From the NCBI RefSeq assembly GCF_001641285.1, contig NZ_CP014841.1, forward strand, positions 4,118,501 through 4,182,500: a stretch of DNA of 64,000 nucleotides. The letters run 5' to 3'. Source of the DNA: Dyella thiooxydans (lineage in GTDB: Bacteria > Pseudomonadota > Gammaproteobacteria > Xanthomonadales > Rhodanobacteraceae). The position numbers and the translations under genes were made by a program. Positions 32,875 through 40,019 of this stretch are shown in pieces (position 1 is the stretch's first letter; each line of letters starts with the position of its first letter). The notes beneath the pieces are model-generated. The model was not told the DNA's origin. It searched no databases and saw only the letters and a list, made by a program, of their open reading frames with translations.

Positions 32875-35121
32875 TCAGAGCAGCCGCAGCAGCTCCTTCA
32901 TCAGCGGCAGCCGGCGGACGCGTACCGCGGTGGCGCGGAAGACCGCGTTGGCGAGCGCTGGTGCGGCGGTCGGCATGGCCAGGAAACTGGCACCGGCGGG
33001 CGGTCGGTCATTGTCCGCGATCACCACGACTTCCACCGCATCCGGCAATTGCGCCATGCCGGCCAGGCCGTAGGCGCTCCAGTCCCGCTGCTGCACCTGG
33101 CCATCCCTGATGGTTATCGCCTGGTTCAGTGCCTGGCCGAATGCGTCCAGCGTGGCGCCGGCAAGCTGGCCTTCCAGCCCGGTGGGGTTGATCGCGCGAC
33201 CGATGTCGGCCACGCAGACTGCGCGCTCGATGGTGAGCTGCTCGCCCTGCATCGAAGCTTCCACCGCGTGTGCGACATAGGCGCCGTCCATGTACCAGGC
33301 GGCAATGCCCAGGCCGTTGACGGTATGCAGCCAGGTCGCCCAGTCGATGCGTTCGGCGGCCAGTTTAAGCACGTTGGCCAGCCGGCCGGTGTCCAGCGCA
33401 CCGCCGCCGGGCAGCGGCAGCTGGCGCGGCTCGCCGATCACCCGCAGGCGGGTATCCAGCGGGTTTTCGCGCATCACGTGGGCGATCTCGTCGATGAAGC
33501 TTTCCACGGCGAAGGCCTGTGCCGTATCGGGCATGCCGCGCATGGGGCCGCGCGGCGTGGTGGCCTGCAGTGCGTACCAGTCCAGCCGGAAGTTCGGCAC
33601 CAGGCCGGCCGGGAGGTGGCCCGGGTTGGCTTCGGCGATCCCCAGCCGGTCGTCCGGCACGCCACGGCCGGCCAGTGCCGGTGCGGTGGCGAAGCGATGG
33701 TTCCAGGCCAGCAGCTGGCGCCTGCGGCCGATGATCGCCTGCATCGCATGCACGCTGCCGGAGCGGTAGAAGTCGTGCGCGAGATCGTCCTCGCGCGTCC
33801 ACAGCAGCCGCACCGGCTTGTCCAGCATCTTGCCCAGCATCACCGCCTCGGCCACGTAATCGTGGTCGAGCCGGCGGCCGTAGCCACCGCCGACACGCGG
33901 CACGCGGATGGTGATCTGCGCGGGCGACAGGCCGGTGAGCCGCTGCACCACGGCCAGCGCCTGCTGCGGTGCCTGGGTCGGGATGACCAGCTCGGCGCGA
34001 TCCTTGTCGATCCGCGCGAAACAGTTCATCGGCTCGGCCGTGGCATGCGCCAGCCACGGCTGAACGTAGGTGGCCTCGATGCGACGGGCGGCCTTCTTGC
34101 TGGCGGCGTCGACATCGCCGTCGTTGCGCATGCGCAGGGCAGGCGCGCCGTCACCGGCGAGCAGGGTCTGCGCCTGCTGCTCGATGGCAGCGGTGGACTC
34201 GCCCGCGGATGCGCCGGGCTTCCATTTCAGTTCGAGTGCGGCGCGACCACGCAGTGCCGCCCAGGTGTTTTCCGCCACCACCGCGACGGCGACACAGCGC
34301 GGCGTGGTGCCAAGGGGCTGATCTTTTTCCGGGGCCAGACGCAGGATCTTCTGCACGCCCTTGATCGCCAGTGCCTTGGCCGTATCGATCCGGTCGAGGC
34401 TGCCATCCGGCCACGGGCAGTGCGCCATCACGGCCACCAGGGCGTCGTCGCTGGCGTGGTCGATGCCGAAGCGGGCCTGCCCGGTGACTACCGCGCGGGC
34501 ATTGGCGTCACCGGCGCCCTTGCCGATCAGGGTGAAGCGGTCGGGCGTCTTCAGCGGCACCGGTGCCTTGGGCGGATCGATCTTCGCGGCTGCCGCGGCG
34601 AGCTGGCCGTAGCCGAGGCGGCGGCCATCGCCGCTGATCACGTGGCCGGCCTCGCAGCGGAGCTGGTCGGCCGGCACGCCGAGCTGGCGTGCCGCCGCCT
34701 GCAGCAGCAGCCAGCGGGCCAGTGCACCCGCCGGGCGCAGATCGTTCCATGCCGACGGTACCGAGGTGCCGGTGCCGCCGAGCTGGTGGCCGTAGACGAA
34801 ACGGGTCTTGCCGCCAACCTGGGTCGTGTCCGGCCCCAGGGCGATCACCCTCACGCTGGACCAGTCGGCATCCATCTCGTCGGCGATGATGCGGGCCAGC
34901 GCGGTCGCGGCACCGGTGCCGGTTTCCGGGTCGCGCGCGCCGATCAGCACGCTGCCATCGGCGTCCACGCGCACGTAGGCACCGAGACCGTAGATCTGGT
35001 CGCCGAGCCAGCCGGTGGGTACCGGTGCATCGGCGGCATCGACCAGGGGAATGCCCACCACCAGCGCTCCCGTGGCGCCGGCCAGTACCTGCAGGAAGCG
35101 GCGACGTGACAGCCGGATCAT
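32875..35121 (-). CDS. Isoquinoline 1-oxidoreductase-like molybdenum subunit (IorB type), catalytic Glu apparently missing
   Basis: This 748-residue protein has a Tat signal (SRRRFLQVLAG) for export of folded cofactor proteins, then the xanthine-oxidase-family molybdopterin domains: RDPETGTGAATALARIIADE, HATAEPMNCFARI, RVGGGYGRRLDHDYVAEA and RGPMRGMPDT. Near the C-terminus, homologues carry P-x-G-x-GE-PG before APALANA, the E being the catalytic base; here the segment is PAGASFLAMPTAAPALANA, placing Phe713 at the glutamate position. The start overlaps the [2Fe-2S] partner by 4 bp. Function may be altered or lost despite a fully open frame. No cofactor-insertion gene such as xdhC is adjacent. 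Confidence 0.85.
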   Translation of the reverse strand: MIRLSRRRFLQVLAGATGALVVGIPLVDAADAPVPTGWLGDQIYGLGAYVRVDADGSVLIGARDPETGTGAATALARIIADEMDADWSSVRVIALGPDTTQVGGKTRFVYGHQLGGTGTSVPSAWNDLRPAGALARWLLLQAAARQLGVPADQLRCEAGHVISGDGRRLGYGQLAAAAAKIDPPKAPVPLKTPDRFTLIGKGAGDANARAVVTGQARFGIDHASDDALVAVMAHCPWPDGSLDRIDTAKALAIKGVQKILRLAPEKDQPLGTTPRCVAVAVVAENTWAALRGRAALELKWKPGASAGESTAAIEQQAQTLLAGDGAPALRMRNDGDVDAASKKAARRIEATYVQPWLAHATAEPMNCFARIDKDRAELVIPTQAPQQALAVVQRLTGLSPAQITIRVPRVGGGYGRRLDHDYVAEAVMLGKMLDKPVRLLWTREDDLAHDFYRSGSVHAMQAIIGRRRQLLAWNHRFATAPALAGRGVPDDRLGIAEANPGHLPAGLVPNFRLDWYALQATTPRGPMRGMPDTAQAFAVESFIDEIAHVMRENPLDTRLRVIGEPRQLPLPGGGALDTGRLANVLKLAAERIDWATWLHTVNGLGIAAWYMDGAYVAHAVEASMQGEQLTIERAVCVADIGRAINPTGLEGQLAGATLDAFGQALNQAITIRDGQVQQRDWSAYGLAGMAQLPDAVEVVVIADNDRPPAGASFLAMPTAAPALANAVFRATAVRVRRLPLMKELLRLL

Positions 35122-35648
35122 GCCTGGCCTCCCCTGGCGGCGCGCTGGATCGCCTTGCGCACCCGGGTCTGGCAGCCGCAGCGGCAGAGGTTGGGCAGGG
35201 TGTCGATATCGGCGTCGGAGGGATGCGGCTTGCGGCGCAGCAGGTCGACGCCGGCGATCAGCCAGCCCGGCGTGCAGTAGCCGCAGCCGATCGCGTCCTC
35301 GTCGATGAAGGCCTGCTGCAGCGGGTGCAACTGGCCGTCGGGGCCGGCCAGTCCCTCCACGGTCACCACGGATTTGCCGGCCAGCCGGGCCATCGGCAGC
35401 GTGATTGCCGAAATCGCCTTGCCGTCGACCAGCACGAGATCGGCGCCGCCGGTGCCTTTGGCATCGGCGTACTTGGTGCCGGTCAGGCGCAGCACGTCCC
35501 GCAGATACCAGAGCAGCGGCAGCTCGGGGTCGCCGGTGTGGCGGAAGTCCTCGCCGTTGATGCGCAACCCGATGCCGTCACGGACCTTTTCCGGCGTGAC
35601 GGAGGTGTCCGGTTTCGCCAGCAGACCCTGGTCCTGCAACTGCGCCAT
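35118..35648 (-). CDS. IorA-type [2Fe-2S] subunit lacking the plant-ferredoxin cluster cysteines
   Basis: This 176-residue small subunit partners the molybdenum subunit downstream (4-bp overlap, ATGA). The C-terminal helical cluster domain is intact (GCGYCTPGW, Cys122 and Cys125; LCRCGC, Cys155 and Cys157). The N-terminal ferredoxin-like domain keeps its frame (LTGTKYADAKGTGGADLVLV, DGK) but every cluster cysteine is replaced: Asp62, Gly67, Asp70 and Ile82 stand where the family has Cys. The outer electron-transfer cluster should therefore be absent. ATG 35648 has GGGAG 7 bp upstream; a TTG three bases earlier is less likely. It follows the permease gene on the same strand after 49 bp. Confidence 0.85.
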   Translation of the reverse strand: MAQLQDQGLLAKPDTSVTPEKVRDGIGLRINGEDFRHTGDPELPLLWYLRDVLRLTGTKYADAKGTGGADLVLVDGKAISAITLPMARLAGKSVVTVEGLAGPDGQLHPLQQAFIDEDAIGCGYCTPGWLIAGVDLLRRKPHPSDADIDTLPNLCRCGCQTRVRKAIQRAARGGQA

Positions 35649-35697: not shown

Positions 35698-37023
35698 TTA
35701 GGGATGGGCGGGCCTGAACAGACGCTGCCAGACGAAATACACCGGTGCGCCGGCCAGCATGATCAGCACGCCGATGCCGGCATTGCGCGGATTGCTGCGC
35801 ATGGTCTCGACCACCACCCAGCCGATCACGCCCACGAACAGCAGCGGCAGCAGCGGGTAGCCCGGCACCCGGAAGCTGGCGCCGGCGCCATCGTGGCGCC
35901 GGTACCAGAACAGCGTCAGCACGCCGATCGCGCAGGCCAGCCAGTCGGCGAAGGTGGCGTAGTCCAGCAGCTGGCCGTAGCTGCCCGAAGCCACGAGCAC
36001 GATCGACCATCCGGCCAGCAGCACGATCGCCAGGTTCGGCGTGCGATGCACCGGGTGCAGCCGTGCCACCGAGCGGAAGAACAGCCCGTCCTCGCCCATC
36101 ACCTGCAGCACGCGGGCGCCCGCCACCACGGTGATGTTGCAGAAGCCCAGGGTGGAGATCGCCACGCCCAGCGAGATCGCCTTGGCGCCGACGGTGCCGA
36201 ACACCCGCTGCATCACGTCCGCTGCCGGGGCATGGCTGGCGGCCAGCCCCTCGTGACCGAGCGCGGCCAGGTAGGCCACGTTGACCAGCGCGTAGGCGAC
36301 GATCACCCCGAGCATGCCGAGGAACAGCGCGCGGGGCAGGGTGCGCTGCGGCTGGTCGACTTCGCCGGCGAGGTTGTTGAGGTAGGTGAATCCGGAATAG
36401 GCGAACAGCACCGGCAACGCCGCACCCATGAAGCCCACGCCGCGCCGTGCTTCGTCCACCCCCAGCACCGCATGCGCGCCCTGACCCACACCGGCCAGGT
36501 AGAGGCCGCAGCCGACCAGCACGGCGACTGCCGCCAGCTTGAGCACGGAGAAGGTGTTCTGGATGGTCGCGCCCAGGCGGATCCCGAACAGGTTGATGCC
36601 GGCGACGAAGGCCAGTGCGGCGACTGCCAGCGGCGTGGCCGCCCGTGGCGGCAGGTCGAACAGGGCCGAGGCATAGCTGGCGAAGATGGTGGCCACCGCC
36701 GCGGTGGATCCGGAGTAGATCACCAGCAGCATGGTCCAGCCGAACAGGAAGCCGGCCAGCGGACCGAAGGCTTCGCGCAGGTAGACGTAGATGCCGCCGG
36801 CGTTCGGTCGCCGCGCGCCGAGCTCGGCATAGCACAGCGCGCCGACAAGGGTCAGCAGTCCTGCCCCGACCCATATCGCCAGCAGCGCGATGCCCGATTC
36901 GGTACGCGCCGCGGCCACGCCCGGATTGAGGAAGATGCCGCCACCGATGATGCCGCCGATGACGACCATCGCCGCGTCGCCCAGGCGCATGTTGCGCAGG
37001 TATCCGTTCGGGGTATTGGGCAT
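35698..37023 (-). CDS. APC superfamily amino acid permease
   Basis: This 441-residue inner-membrane transporter has about twelve predicted helices. TM1 carries the unwound substrate-binding motif GGIIGGGIFLNPG; TM2-TM3 (GIALLAIWVGAGLLTLVGALCYAELGARRPNAGGIY) and PVLFAYSGFTYLNNLAGEV in TM6 are typical of the LAT/YjeH-like branch. It would move amino acids or related compounds using ion gradients or exchange; the substrate is not evident. ATG 37023 lacks a strong ribosome-binding site. The gene precedes the molybdenum hydroxylase pair on the same strand, so a shared transcript is possible but the functions do not obviously connect. Confidence 0.9.
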   Translation of the reverse strand: MPNTPNGYLRNMRLGDAAMVVIGGIIGGGIFLNPGVAAARTESGIALLAIWVGAGLLTLVGALCYAELGARRPNAGGIYVYLREAFGPLAGFLFGWTMLLVIYSGSTAAVATIFASYASALFDLPPRAATPLAVAALAFVAGINLFGIRLGATIQNTFSVLKLAAVAVLVGCGLYLAGVGQGAHAVLGVDEARRGVGFMGAALPVLFAYSGFTYLNNLAGEVDQPQRTLPRALFLGMLGVIVAYALVNVAYLAALGHEGLAASHAPAADVMQRVFGTVGAKAISLGVAISTLGFCNITVVAGARVLQVMGEDGLFFRSVARLHPVHRTPNLAIVLLAGWSIVLVASGSYGQLLDYATFADWLACAIGVLTLFWYRRHDGAGASFRVPGYPLLPLLFVGVIGWVVVETMRSNPRNAGIGVLIMLAGAPVYFVWQRLFRPAHP

Positions 37024-37171: not shown

Positions 37172-37217
37172 TCATGAGGCCGAGGTGCAGAAATCGCCAA
37201 CCACAGGGGAGTCACCG

Positions 37218-37802
37218 ATGAGCAAGCGCTTCACCATCGCCGTTGCGGCGATGGCCCTTTCCTGCATCTCCGCCGGCTCGCTGGCCGCGACCACCTCGGG
37301 CCAGTTCTTTCTCAATGGCACGGTGGGTCAGTCGACCTGGCACGATGACGGCTTCAACACGAGCAAGACGGACACCGCCACGGCGTGGCGCTTTGGCTAC
37401 GCGTGGAACATCGATCAGGTGAGCTACGGCTTCGAGGCCGGCTATGCCGACTTGGGCAAGGGCAAGGGAACCTACTATTCCGGCGTCGGCAGCAGTGACC
37501 TGTCGGGCGGCGCCACCGGACCGCTGGCGGGCGTCAACATGACCTACCGCTTCCGCAACCGCATGTTCGTCAATGCCCGCCTCGGCTGGATGCACGACAA
37601 CGTCGACTTCAAGATCGGCGGATCCAGCTCGAGCTATTCCGGTGATGGTGGTTACGCGGGTGTCGGCGTGGGCTACGACATCAACGAGAACTTCGGCGTT
37701 GGCGTGGCTTACGACCGCTACAACGTGCGCGCCCAGATCAACGGCTCACGGTCGCAGGACGGCGTGGACGTATTCTCCGGGTTCGCCGAAGTGCGCTTCT
37801 GA
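37218..37802 (+). CDS. Small outer-membrane beta-barrel protein (paralogue 1)
   Basis: This 194-residue protein has a signal peptide (IAVAAMALSCISAGSLAA) and eight predicted amphipathic strands, ending in Phe (FAEVRF), the usual signal for the BAM complex. Repeated motifs such as YGFEAGYADLGKG, ARLGWMHDNVDFK and AGVGVGYDINENFGVGVAYD match the OmpX/Ail/OmpW-like opacity family (PF13505). Three tandem relatives lie at 41086-43239 on the same strand. ATG 37218 follows GGGGAG. It ends at a strong terminator and is monocistronic. Function is unknown; such barrels act in adhesion, membrane integrity or small-molecule passage. Confidence 0.82.
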   Translation: MSKRFTIAVAAMALSCISAGSLAATTSGQFFLNGTVGQSTWHDDGFNTSKTDTATAWRFGYAWNIDQVSYGFEAGYADLGKGKGTYYSGVGSSDLSGGATGPLAGVNMTYRFRNRMFVNARLGWMHDNVDFKIGGSSSSYSGDGGYAGVGVGYDINENFGVGVAYDRYNVRAQINGSRSQDGVDVFSGFAEVRF

Positions 37803-37874: not shown

Positions 37875-39803
37875 TTACCAGCGGAACCGCATGAATGCGT
37901 CCAGGTTGCTCACGTCCAGCGTGCCGATGCCGGCGCCCGGGGTGTAGTGCGGTGCACCCTGGTAGAACCAGTTGTCGCCGCCGTTGACGCTGTTGAACGG
38001 CGAGTAGCGGCCATAGCCGAACACCGCCTGCAGGAAGTACATCTGCGGATTCCACAGGCCGATGCGATGGCCCGAGCTCTGCCGCAGCAGCGCGGTGATG
38101 CCGTTGAGCTGTGGCGCCACGAAGCTGGTGCCGCCCTGGCCGGCGGTCGCGCCGCCATCGGTGCTGGAGTACACCAGATAGCCCGTCTCCGGGTCCGCGT
38201 TGAGTGAGATGTCCGGCAGGTTGCGGCCGGCGAAGTGCGAGGGCAGCTTCAGCAGCGTGGTCGGGCCGGCCGTCGGGTCGTTGTAGTCCAGCGACTGGTG
38301 GCCTTCGGTGCGACGGATGCCGCGGGTGAAGTACTGGTAGAACGGCTTGCGCCAGTAGCTGCTGACGCCGCCGCCGCCACCCACCGAGAACAGGTCCACC
38401 ACACCCTGGCCGAAGTTGGTGTCGAAGTAGGTCTGCAGGTAGTCCCAGCCCCACACGCTCTCCTGCGAGACCGAGGCCACCGGGCCGTTGCCGAAGGCGA
38501 AGCTGAAGGGCGTGGTGGTGCCGCCGGCCGCGGTGATGTACGGATCGGATGCCGGCGAGTCCACCGTCAGCGGTGCGCTGAATTCACCGGGACCGGTGCC
38601 ATGACCGAGCCCGCGCACGGTGTCGTAGGCCCCCGAGTCGCCGGCCGCGGCGAACACCGACTGTCCCTGCACCGCCGCTTCCATCAGCAGCGTGTGGAAC
38701 GCTTGCAGCGTGCCGACGTCGCGGGTGTCGTTGACGCGTGCGCCGTCCACGTTGAGTGCCGCGAAGTTGTAGATCTCCGGGGCGCCCCAGCTGGTGGAGA
38801 TGGCGTCGGCGCGGTTGTCCACCACCGCCTGCGCCAGGGCATTGACGAAGCTGGCGTTGGTGTTCGGCGCGTCGTAGACGAGGATGTCGGCATCCGGCGC
38901 CAGGCCACCTGCCTGTTCCACGTCCAGCGCGGTCTCGCCGCTGCCGCTGTTGATCGGGCCGCCGCCATCGACGTGGATCTGCTCGATGCGGTGCGGTTTG
39001 GTGGTCAGGCCGATGGCACTCCAGTAGGCCTCGGCATCGGCCGGGTCGAAGTTGGCCAGCGTCACGATGGCGACCGTGGAGCCCTTGCCGGTGATGCCGC
39101 GCTGATACAGCGGATTGATGTTGTAGAAGTTGGCCACGTCGCCGACGGTGTACTCGCCGGGCTGTCCCGACGCGGTCGGATTGCTGTCGGCGCTCTTCGC
39201 GCGGTTGGCACCGATTGCGTTGAGGCTGGCCAGCTTGGGGGCGGCCTGGGGCAGGTGCGGCGAGCTCAGCCGGTGCGACAGGAAGCTCGATTCGTTGTCC
39301 AGGCCGACGATCGCGTCCACCTGTCCGACCAGCCCGGCCGGCATCACCACGTCACCGGTCGGACGGTGGTAGAGGCGACCGTTGGAGCGCAGCCGGTAGC
39401 TGTGGATAGGGGTGCCGAAGGCGGCGCTGAACTGGGCCAGCGTACCGCTGACCTGGAGCGTGATGCGGTTGGCCATCACGTCGCCGCGCAGTCCCTGCGA
39501 GGCCAGGTAATGCTGGACACGGGCGATCTCGGCGTCGGAGGCGCCGTAGCGCCGGGCGAAATCCGCGGTGCTGAGGAAGCGCTGGAAGTTCGGACTGCCG
39601 GGGGTGACGGTCTGCTGGATGTAGTTGGCCAGTCCGTGCTCGTCGCGCAGGTGGAGCATCAGCGTGACGTTGACGGTCTGCGAGGCGTCGGTAGCACTCG
39701 TGGTGGTCGCCTGTGGCGCATCCGCGGCGCTGGCAAGCGATGCGCCGGCGAAGAACAGTGCGAGGGTGGCGGCGAGGGTGGTGCGGTGAAGCGTGGATCG
39801 CAT
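37875..39803 (-). CDS. Sedolisin family (S53) serine-carboxyl peptidase, xanthomonalisin-like
   Basis: This 642-residue secreted acid protease has a signal peptide (1-27), an activation propeptide (about 30-200, with RFLSTADFARRYGASD) and a catalytic domain. The triad Glu290 and Asp294 (SGSGETALDVEQ) and Ser560 (GGTSFVAPQ) is complete, with the oxyanion aspartate Asp389 (AAAGDSGA). The C-terminal calcium site is represented by NADPETGYLVY and GAGIGTLDVSNL. Family members work at low pH, insensitive to pepstatin, and digest proteins outside the cell. ATG 39803 has AAGGAGAG 5 bp upstream. It is monocistronic and convergent with the barrel gene. Confidence 0.93.
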   Translation of the reverse strand: MRSTLHRTTLAATLALFFAGASLASAADAPQATTTSATDASQTVNVTLMLHLRDEHGLANYIQQTVTPGSPNFQRFLSTADFARRYGASDAEIARVQHYLASQGLRGDVMANRITLQVSGTLAQFSAAFGTPIHSYRLRSNGRLYHRPTGDVVMPAGLVGQVDAIVGLDNESSFLSHRLSSPHLPQAAPKLASLNAIGANRAKSADSNPTASGQPGEYTVGDVANFYNINPLYQRGITGKGSTVAIVTLANFDPADAEAYWSAIGLTTKPHRIEQIHVDGGGPINSGSGETALDVEQAGGLAPDADILVYDAPNTNASFVNALAQAVVDNRADAISTSWGAPEIYNFAALNVDGARVNDTRDVGTLQAFHTLLMEAAVQGQSVFAAAGDSGAYDTVRGLGHGTGPGEFSAPLTVDSPASDPYITAAGGTTTPFSFAFGNGPVASVSQESVWGWDYLQTYFDTNFGQGVVDLFSVGGGGGVSSYWRKPFYQYFTRGIRRTEGHQSLDYNDPTAGPTTLLKLPSHFAGRNLPDISLNADPETGYLVYSSTDGGATAGQGGTSFVAPQLNGITALLRQSSGHRIGLWNPQMYFLQAVFGYGRYSPFNSVNGGDNWFYQGAPHYTPGAGIGTLDVSNLDAFMRFRW

Positions 39804-39978
39804 GAGACTCTCCTTAGAACACGACCGGGATCGGAGGCCACGACAGTCCGCGCAAGGCGCGACCTGCCGCGCTTCAACCCGATGGGCGAGCGCGTCATCC
39901 GTAGCGATGACTTCATTGTTTCCCTGTACGCCGTCGTGTCCCCCGCAGACCACGATGGCGTTCTGTGAGCTTGCACCC

Positions 39979-39999
39979 AAAAACACTTCAAGTGAAGTG
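39979..39999 (-). terminator. Weak intrinsic terminator of the PhzF gene
   Basis: On the minus strand a 6-bp stem (CACTTC/GAAGTG, 39984-39999) is followed by five T (39983 to 39979). It lies about 20 bp after the PhzF stop and upstream of the sedolisin promoter region. Confidence 0.5.
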
Positions 40000-40019
40000 C
40001 TAGGCACTCGGCATTTTTC

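Follow-up and report, generated by a model that had tools for sequence, protein, structure and literature searches.

Apparent loss of catalysis in a conserved xanthine oxidase-family pair of Dyella thiooxydans and its relatives

The stretch of DNA analysed here, called the window, comprises 64,000 nt of Dyella thiooxydans (assembly GCF_001641285.1, contig NZ_CP014841.1, positions 4,118,501–4,182,500), and all coordinates are window positions. Two open frames on its minus strand, overlapping by 4 bases, encode the pair of subunits considered here: a small iron-sulfur subunit of 176 aa of the xanthine oxidase (XO) family type (35118..35648, −; start ATG at 35648, stop at 35118) and a large, formerly molybdenum cofactor (Moco)-binding subunit of 748 aa (32875..35121, −). 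The latter has a twin-arginine signal at its N terminus, where the twin-arginine translocation (Tat) model TIGR01409 scores above cut-off. Each assignment draws on the open reading frame, Pfam, alignment, and a modelled fold. Pfam finds Fer2_2 in the small subunit (5.2e-22) and MoCoBD_1 and MoCoBD_2 in the large one. Fer2 is not found in the small subunit at an E-value of 0.001, and an intact relative from the same bacterial family (locus L128) gives Fer2 as well as Fer2_2. The small-subunit model (predicted local distance difference test score, pLDDT, 88.8) retains both the N-terminal plant-ferredoxin-like fold and the C-terminal helical cluster fold, and its nearest solved folds are the small subunits of carbon monoxide dehydrogenase (CODH), 4-hydroxybenzoyl-CoA reductase, and aldehyde oxidase. 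Residues 3–741 of the large subunit align with 8gy3_C, the best solved relative by sequence and also the best solved fold match to its model (pLDDT 86.3, template modelling [TM] score 0.83). Fold and domains of both subunits fit, and by descent the pair belongs to the XO family.

At the positions that matter for catalysis the picture is different. In the small subunit the former ligands of the distal [2Fe-2S] cluster (35403..35465, −) are replaced by Asp62 (35463–35465), Gly67 (35448–35450), Asp70 (35439–35441), and Ile82 (35403–35405), all of which align with the four cysteines of 5y6q_A, 4zoh_C, and 8gy3_B. The proximal [2Fe-2S] region (35172..35288, −) keeps Cys122, Cys125, Cys155, and Cys157 and carries the clade-typical residues G121, W129, and C159. 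In the large subunit Phe713 (codon 32983..32985, −) occupies the position of the catalytic glutamate, the motif reading GASF against GLGE in 8gy3_C and GxGE in the family, and no acidic residue (Glu or Asp) occurs in the loop stretch GASFLAMPTAAPA. The Moco-loop motif GGGYGRR (residues 411–417; 33871..33891, −) is kept despite the lost base; its residues 413–415 fall below pLDDT 50 in an otherwise well modelled chain. The retained Moco-site residues of the large subunit would correspond to Q767, F798, and R912 of the bovine enzyme. By alignment, two features of an active molybdenum hydroxylase are missing, the catalytic glutamate and a full set of ligands for two [2Fe-2S] clusters. The initial annotation of this DNA had reported, from the sequence, the four substituted cysteines beside an intact second cluster, phenylalanine at the catalytic base position, two open genes with a 4-bp overlap, and retained Tat and molybdopterin motifs, and all of these hold under alignment to solved relatives and profile search. 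One further change concerns codon 35172–35174, which encodes a new cysteine, Cys159 (LCRCGCQTR), two residues past the last proximal ligand; threonine stands there in intact family relatives.

These losses are shared widely. Both genes were extracted from 186 loci, of which 162 were left after removal of repeats and four short rows; 131 of these belong to the same bacterial family and 31 are non-family relatives with both genes read. We defined a main clade of 72 distinct loci by D70 together with F or L at 713 (F in 71, L in one), whose named records include Rhodanobacter, Dyella, Frateuria, and Fulvimonas. Since the definition itself uses these two residues, the non-circular facts are that distal cysteines are retained in none of the 72 loci, that all four proximal cysteines are present in 72 of 72, and that the group is supported on the tree. 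In the non-family relatives, all eight cysteines are found in 31 of 31 loci and glutamate at the 713 position in 30, the other having aspartate. The stretch corresponding to residues 26–95 is free of cysteine in all 72 main-clade loci; this and the loop's lack of an acidic residue rule out ligands or a glutamate supplied at shifted positions, and recurrence of the same losses across 72 loci rules out sequencing error. Changes typical of the clade cluster near the proximal site (Q121G, Q126T, Q129W, and T159C, the last in 92% of main-clade loci; also C70D), with T126 common in non-family relatives as well. Among the 41 main-clade rows that carry a genome handle, Q383 and GGGYGRR never vary, and R528 is conserved in 40. 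A search of 233 genomes of the family gave a match at E ≤1e-30 in 227, some of the weaker matches possibly being paralogues, and among the matches listed every frame is open and free of stops.

A tree of 93 rows, quickly built with trait columns removed and no bootstrap, joins the 31 sampled main-clade rows with a value of 100 in the SH-like approximate likelihood ratio test (SH-aLRT). It requires a minimum of six changes at the glutamate position and two in the full distal cysteine set, the second of these amounting to one substitution of serine for cysteine, in L194. Lineages on the path to the main clade keep the distal cysteines and carry at 713 Ala or Asp (g2), Ile, Thr, or Gly (g19), or Val (g16 and g20), and the distal cysteines then vanish on one branch (SH-aLRT 100). 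Separate replacements of the glutamate, by Asp, Asn, Thr, His, or a gap, are seen in parts of g4, g5, g17, and g24. Warnings were raised for seven long terminal branches and for the outgroup, where a long-branch join is doubtful, and the count of losses is accordingly approximate. The tree points to stepwise loss, of the glutamate first and of the distal cluster later, and it rules out the coordinated loss in both partners that the initial annotation had proposed. Frame-broken copies, named in the initial annotation as the mark of simple decay, are absent from the main clade among the loci read and do occur outside it, in L146 (g2) and L148 (genus g4). L148 (genome G024) resembles another locus of that genus, L143 (G022), which has degenerated independently and is a mirror image of the main clade: three of its proximal ligands have become Thr, Ala, and Asp, and its distal cysteines are present with altered spacing. 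A tblastn reading of L143 as a loser of distal cysteines was discarded, as the full protein and a MAFFT alignment show those cysteines, with the three proximal ligands gone.

Ratios of nonsynonymous to synonymous substitution rates (dN/dS, by NG86) within the genus are 0.07–0.13 for the small subunit and 0.09–0.13 for the large one. Medians were also taken over pairs of loci whose large subunits are at least 80% identical, the pairs not being independent. For the small and large subunit, respectively, they are 0.31 and 0.26 in Moco-less main-clade loci (35 pairs), 0.32 and 0.27 in Moco-bearing main-clade loci (44 pairs), 0.22 and 0.18 in other members that have lost the glutamate (24 pairs), and 0.18 and 0.14 in intact relatives (15 pairs). 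Among close Moco-less pairs, three lie at 0.06–0.27 (small) and 0.10–0.16 (large), and two others at 0.30–0.42 and 0.26–0.29. The codon comparisons indicate that the pair is under purifying selection, though less tightly constrained than the intact enzyme. Neither broken frames nor neutral evolution is found among the matches listed and the pairs compared. A conserved clade, open frames, and purifying selection together argue that this is not a simple pseudogene; here the initial annotation, which had suggested as much and named a clade with the same substitutions and dN/dS well below 1 as the check, is borne out.

The most telling evidence concerns the cofactor. Co-occurrence with Moco biosynthesis is expected of an active molybdenum hydroxylase. 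It is not seen in many relatives, whereas the window's own genome has the genes. MoaA (PF06463) was found in 176 of the 233 family genomes. Of the 57 without it, five, all draft assemblies, have MoeA and 52 do not; 51 of these 52 also lack MoaC. The remaining genome, G147 (85% complete), encodes MoaC and a protein of the sulfite oxidase family, and its gaps are therefore probably assembly gaps. No sulfite-oxidase-family domain scores above cut-off in the 51 Moco-less genomes, with one weak match below it in G153; in a check set of five Moco-positive genomes, MoeA and MoaC were found in five and PF00174 in three. The large subunit is present at E ≤7.1e-156 in 49 of the 51 genomes without MoaA, MoeA, and MoaC, among them every one of the 42 with a completeness of 90% or more; the two that lack it, G131 and G096, are both less than 90% complete. 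Both subunits were read in 29 of these 49 genomes. One Moco-less genome with the pair (L124), G199 of g23, is a 1.5 Mb draft, 85% complete, that falls short of its kin in size and in which MoaA, MoeA, and MoaC have no match. The state of the pair was read in 104 of the 233 family genomes. In those at least 90% complete, Moco genes are present alongside intact pairs (glutamate and eight cysteines) in 17 of 17 and absent alongside pairs that have lost the glutamate in 27 of 74 (Fisher p 0.0022, kinship ignored). XdhC (PF02625), a sulfuration chaperone, is found in 132 of 233 genomes, fewer than MoaA. Conservation of the columns that do not vary among intact relatives is 0.854 in 23 Moco-bearing main-clade rows vs 0.853 in 18 Moco-less ones, the pocket lining staying conserved even in the Moco-less species.

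Taken together, these results make it quite probable that the pair is a pseudo-hydroxylase, exported by the Tat system and free of Moco, that carries one [2Fe-2S] cluster and has a role other than hydroxylation, perhaps tied to a neighbouring permease. Its ancestor would have been a periplasmic molybdenum hydroxylase heterodimer of the aldehyde dehydrogenase or isoquinoline oxidoreductase type. An enzyme with the glutamate and both clusters would first have lost the glutamate and then the distal cysteines, after which Moco biosynthesis would have been dropped several times, a loss so far seen, in genomes at least 90% complete, only where the pair, if read, has no glutamate. The conserved glutamate activates an oxygen ligand of molybdenum, and hydroxylation by bovine XO is described as depending essentially on its Glu1261 (PMC10420851). 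A pair short of the glutamate and the distal cluster, and in many relatives of the Moco genes as well, cannot credibly be a hydroxylase. A complex of this type can evidently form without its cofactor, as xanthine dehydrogenase (XDH) from an xdhC mutant is reported to be without Moco and yet to have its FeS clusters and FAD (PMC2997495). The present pair probably folds Moco-free and holds one cluster, and its periplasmic job could be ligand binding, redox-responsive, or structural.

The suggested tie to a permease comes from the layout of the locus. An APC-type amino-acid permease (35698..37023, −; AA_permease_2 above cut-off), whose best NCBIfam model is the L-type amino acid transporter at a score below that model's cut-off, is followed after a 49-bp gap by the small and then the large subunit, making three consecutive minus-strand genes, and it is probably an operon partner of the pair. 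A same-strand upstream permease is found at 62 of 72 main-clade, ten of 25 intact family, 18 of 34 other family, and none of 31 non-family loci, the upstream DNA being only about 1 kb or less at many of them. The permease also stands beside intact pairs, so the association probably predates the loss of catalysis. A functional tie between pair and permease, read from gene order, is the most plausible link for the present role, yet less likely than not. We hold it rather doubtful that the vacated Moco pocket is reused for another ligand, with the one-cluster, Tat-exported complex acting as the permease's periplasmic binding or regulatory partner.

Several observations weigh against the interpretation as a Moco-free pseudo-hydroxylase. 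The permease is missing at ten of 72 main-clade loci, five of which have about 6 kb of upstream DNA, and the link to it is one of synteny only; the pair can persist without it. The pair is not universal: the search at 1e-30 drew a blank in six of 233 family genomes, and G091, a complete genome, yields nothing nearer than a distant match. Selection on the main clade is weaker, at about twice the dN/dS of intact relatives (0.26–0.32 vs 0.14–0.18), and its highest single pairs reach 0.67 (small) and 0.44 (large). A kinship-aware test of glutamate state against Moco genes has only five independent pairs, one or two in the same direction and none in the opposite, and has no power. Three intact-pair drafts, G132, G147, and G230, lack MoaA, all being less than 90% complete and each having another Moco gene. 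Finally, the window's own genome has MoaA, MoeA, and MoaC and so makes Moco, and as GGGYGRR, Q383, and R528 are kept, Moco binding in Dyella thiooxydans is possible. That genome has one other XDH-type locus (G000:C1:1096028-1100090), which holds its only XdhC; the small subunit there has intact distal cysteines, and the locus lies near the Moco genes at 1.128–1.134 Mb.

Surroundings beyond the permease are less constant. At the 37 loci with downstream DNA, the commonest downstream frames fall into two clusters, of 20 and 12 loci; both lie on the opposite strand and their distance from the pair varies, which rules out a conserved downstream operon partner there. The 20-locus cluster (for example, L044:9999-12047, −) encodes proline-rich proteins with one membrane segment, TonB-like by appearance only. 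Among the loci examined, the window's genus alone showed the photolyase that lies downstream of the window pair. Beside the permease in the window lie an outer-membrane beta-barrel protein (37185–37802, +) and a protein with a pro-kumamolisin activation domain (37875–40007, −); genes similar to these recur close to the pair at several loci of Dyella and Rhodanobacter (23 and 11 loci). A search for a sigma-70 promoter near the pair found none, which is uninformative in such GC-rich DNA.

Four other explanations were weighed. In the first, the pair would sense redox state or carry electrons in the periplasm by means of one cluster and have no tie to the permease; the proximal cluster, perhaps with Cys159, would trade electrons directly with a partner and the large subunit would serve as a scaffold. 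The proximal cysteines, kept in 72 of 72 loci, and the fixed main-clade changes around them (G121, W129, and mostly C159), as in a retuned cluster, fit this, but T126 and F114, also near the cluster, are found in non-family relatives, no conserved electron-transfer partner gene was found beside the pair (the sole recurrent downstream gene at 37 loci is the opposite-strand, TonB-like one), and the cluster may be merely structural; we regard this explanation as rather unlikely. In the second, the pair is still a molybdoenzyme wherever Moco is made and catalyses another reaction, one that can proceed without the glutamate and the distal cluster. Such an enzyme would account for the retained Moco loop, Q383, and R528, and the window's species does make Moco, but the large subunit persists in the 49 genomes without MoaA, MoeA, and MoaC, the pocket is equally conserved there (18 loci), and the residue it would do without is the one described as essential to XO hydroxylation (PMC10420851). 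This we judge quite unlikely.

Slow decay of a dead enzyme riding along in a permease operon would explain a dN/dS about twice that of intact relatives and the frame-broken copies in g2 and g4. It is very unlikely, however, given frames open without stops among the matches listed, dN/dS well under 1 even in close Moco-less pairs, proximal ligands kept throughout the main clade, and retention of the pair without an upstream permease at L054, L060, L066, L074, and L077, all with about 6 kb of upstream DNA. Least probable of all is the idea, floated in the initial annotation as cofactor storage, of a store or chaperone for Moco or its cytosine dinucleotide form: the Moco-loop motifs are kept and the window's genome makes Moco, but the proposal is contradicted for the 49 genomes that keep the large subunit without MoaA, MoeA, and MoaC, and Tat export would presumably remove the protein from the cytoplasm, where the cofactor is inserted.

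In openly licensed PubMed Central papers we found no report of a comparable hydroxylase that is dead or works without Moco, nor direct data on one or transposon fitness data for these genera, which is no proof that none exists. The nearest solved system is 8gy3 from Gluconobacter oxydans, a membrane-bound aldehyde dehydrogenase with C as its large and B as its small chain, which resembles the window pair in a near whole-length large-subunit alignment, the TM score given above, and the same small-subunit fold. It has the distal cysteines and GLGE, whereas the window pair has neither and has a permease as its steady neighbour. Similarity alone should not name such pairs isoquinoline oxidoreductase or aldehyde dehydrogenase. 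Also comparable are the intact relatives of the same family (for example, L128, L139, and L140), which fall in the same tree group and share the upstream permease in part of their loci; unlike the window pair they keep Glu713 and all eight cysteines, and their well-assembled genomes retain the Moco genes without exception.

Complexes formed without Moco are known from 1ffu, a CODH lacking the Mo-pyranopterin moiety, and from XDH of the xdhC mutant (PMC2997495). Those are catalytic enzymes caught without their cofactor, whereas here the protein itself has lost its catalytic and electron-exit residues. A 2018 survey reports several hundred organisms with homologues of Moco enzymes, mostly of the dimethyl sulfoxide reductase and XO families, and no complete Moco pathway (PMC6147048). 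That survey reportedly found no sequence feature that marks these orphan molybdoproteins, leaves their use of molybdenum open, and calls for tests. Its definition of an orphan fits the relatives described here and not the window's genome. The present family offers a sequence signature for such proteins. Its graded series, from intact to glutamate-less to cluster-less forms, and the loss of Moco only beside glutamate-less forms in well-assembled genomes make the question of molybdenum use in orphans directly testable. Like the orphans of PMC6147048, this is an XO-family protein retained without Moco biosynthesis; unlike them, it has a signature visible at single residues and losses that can be put in order.

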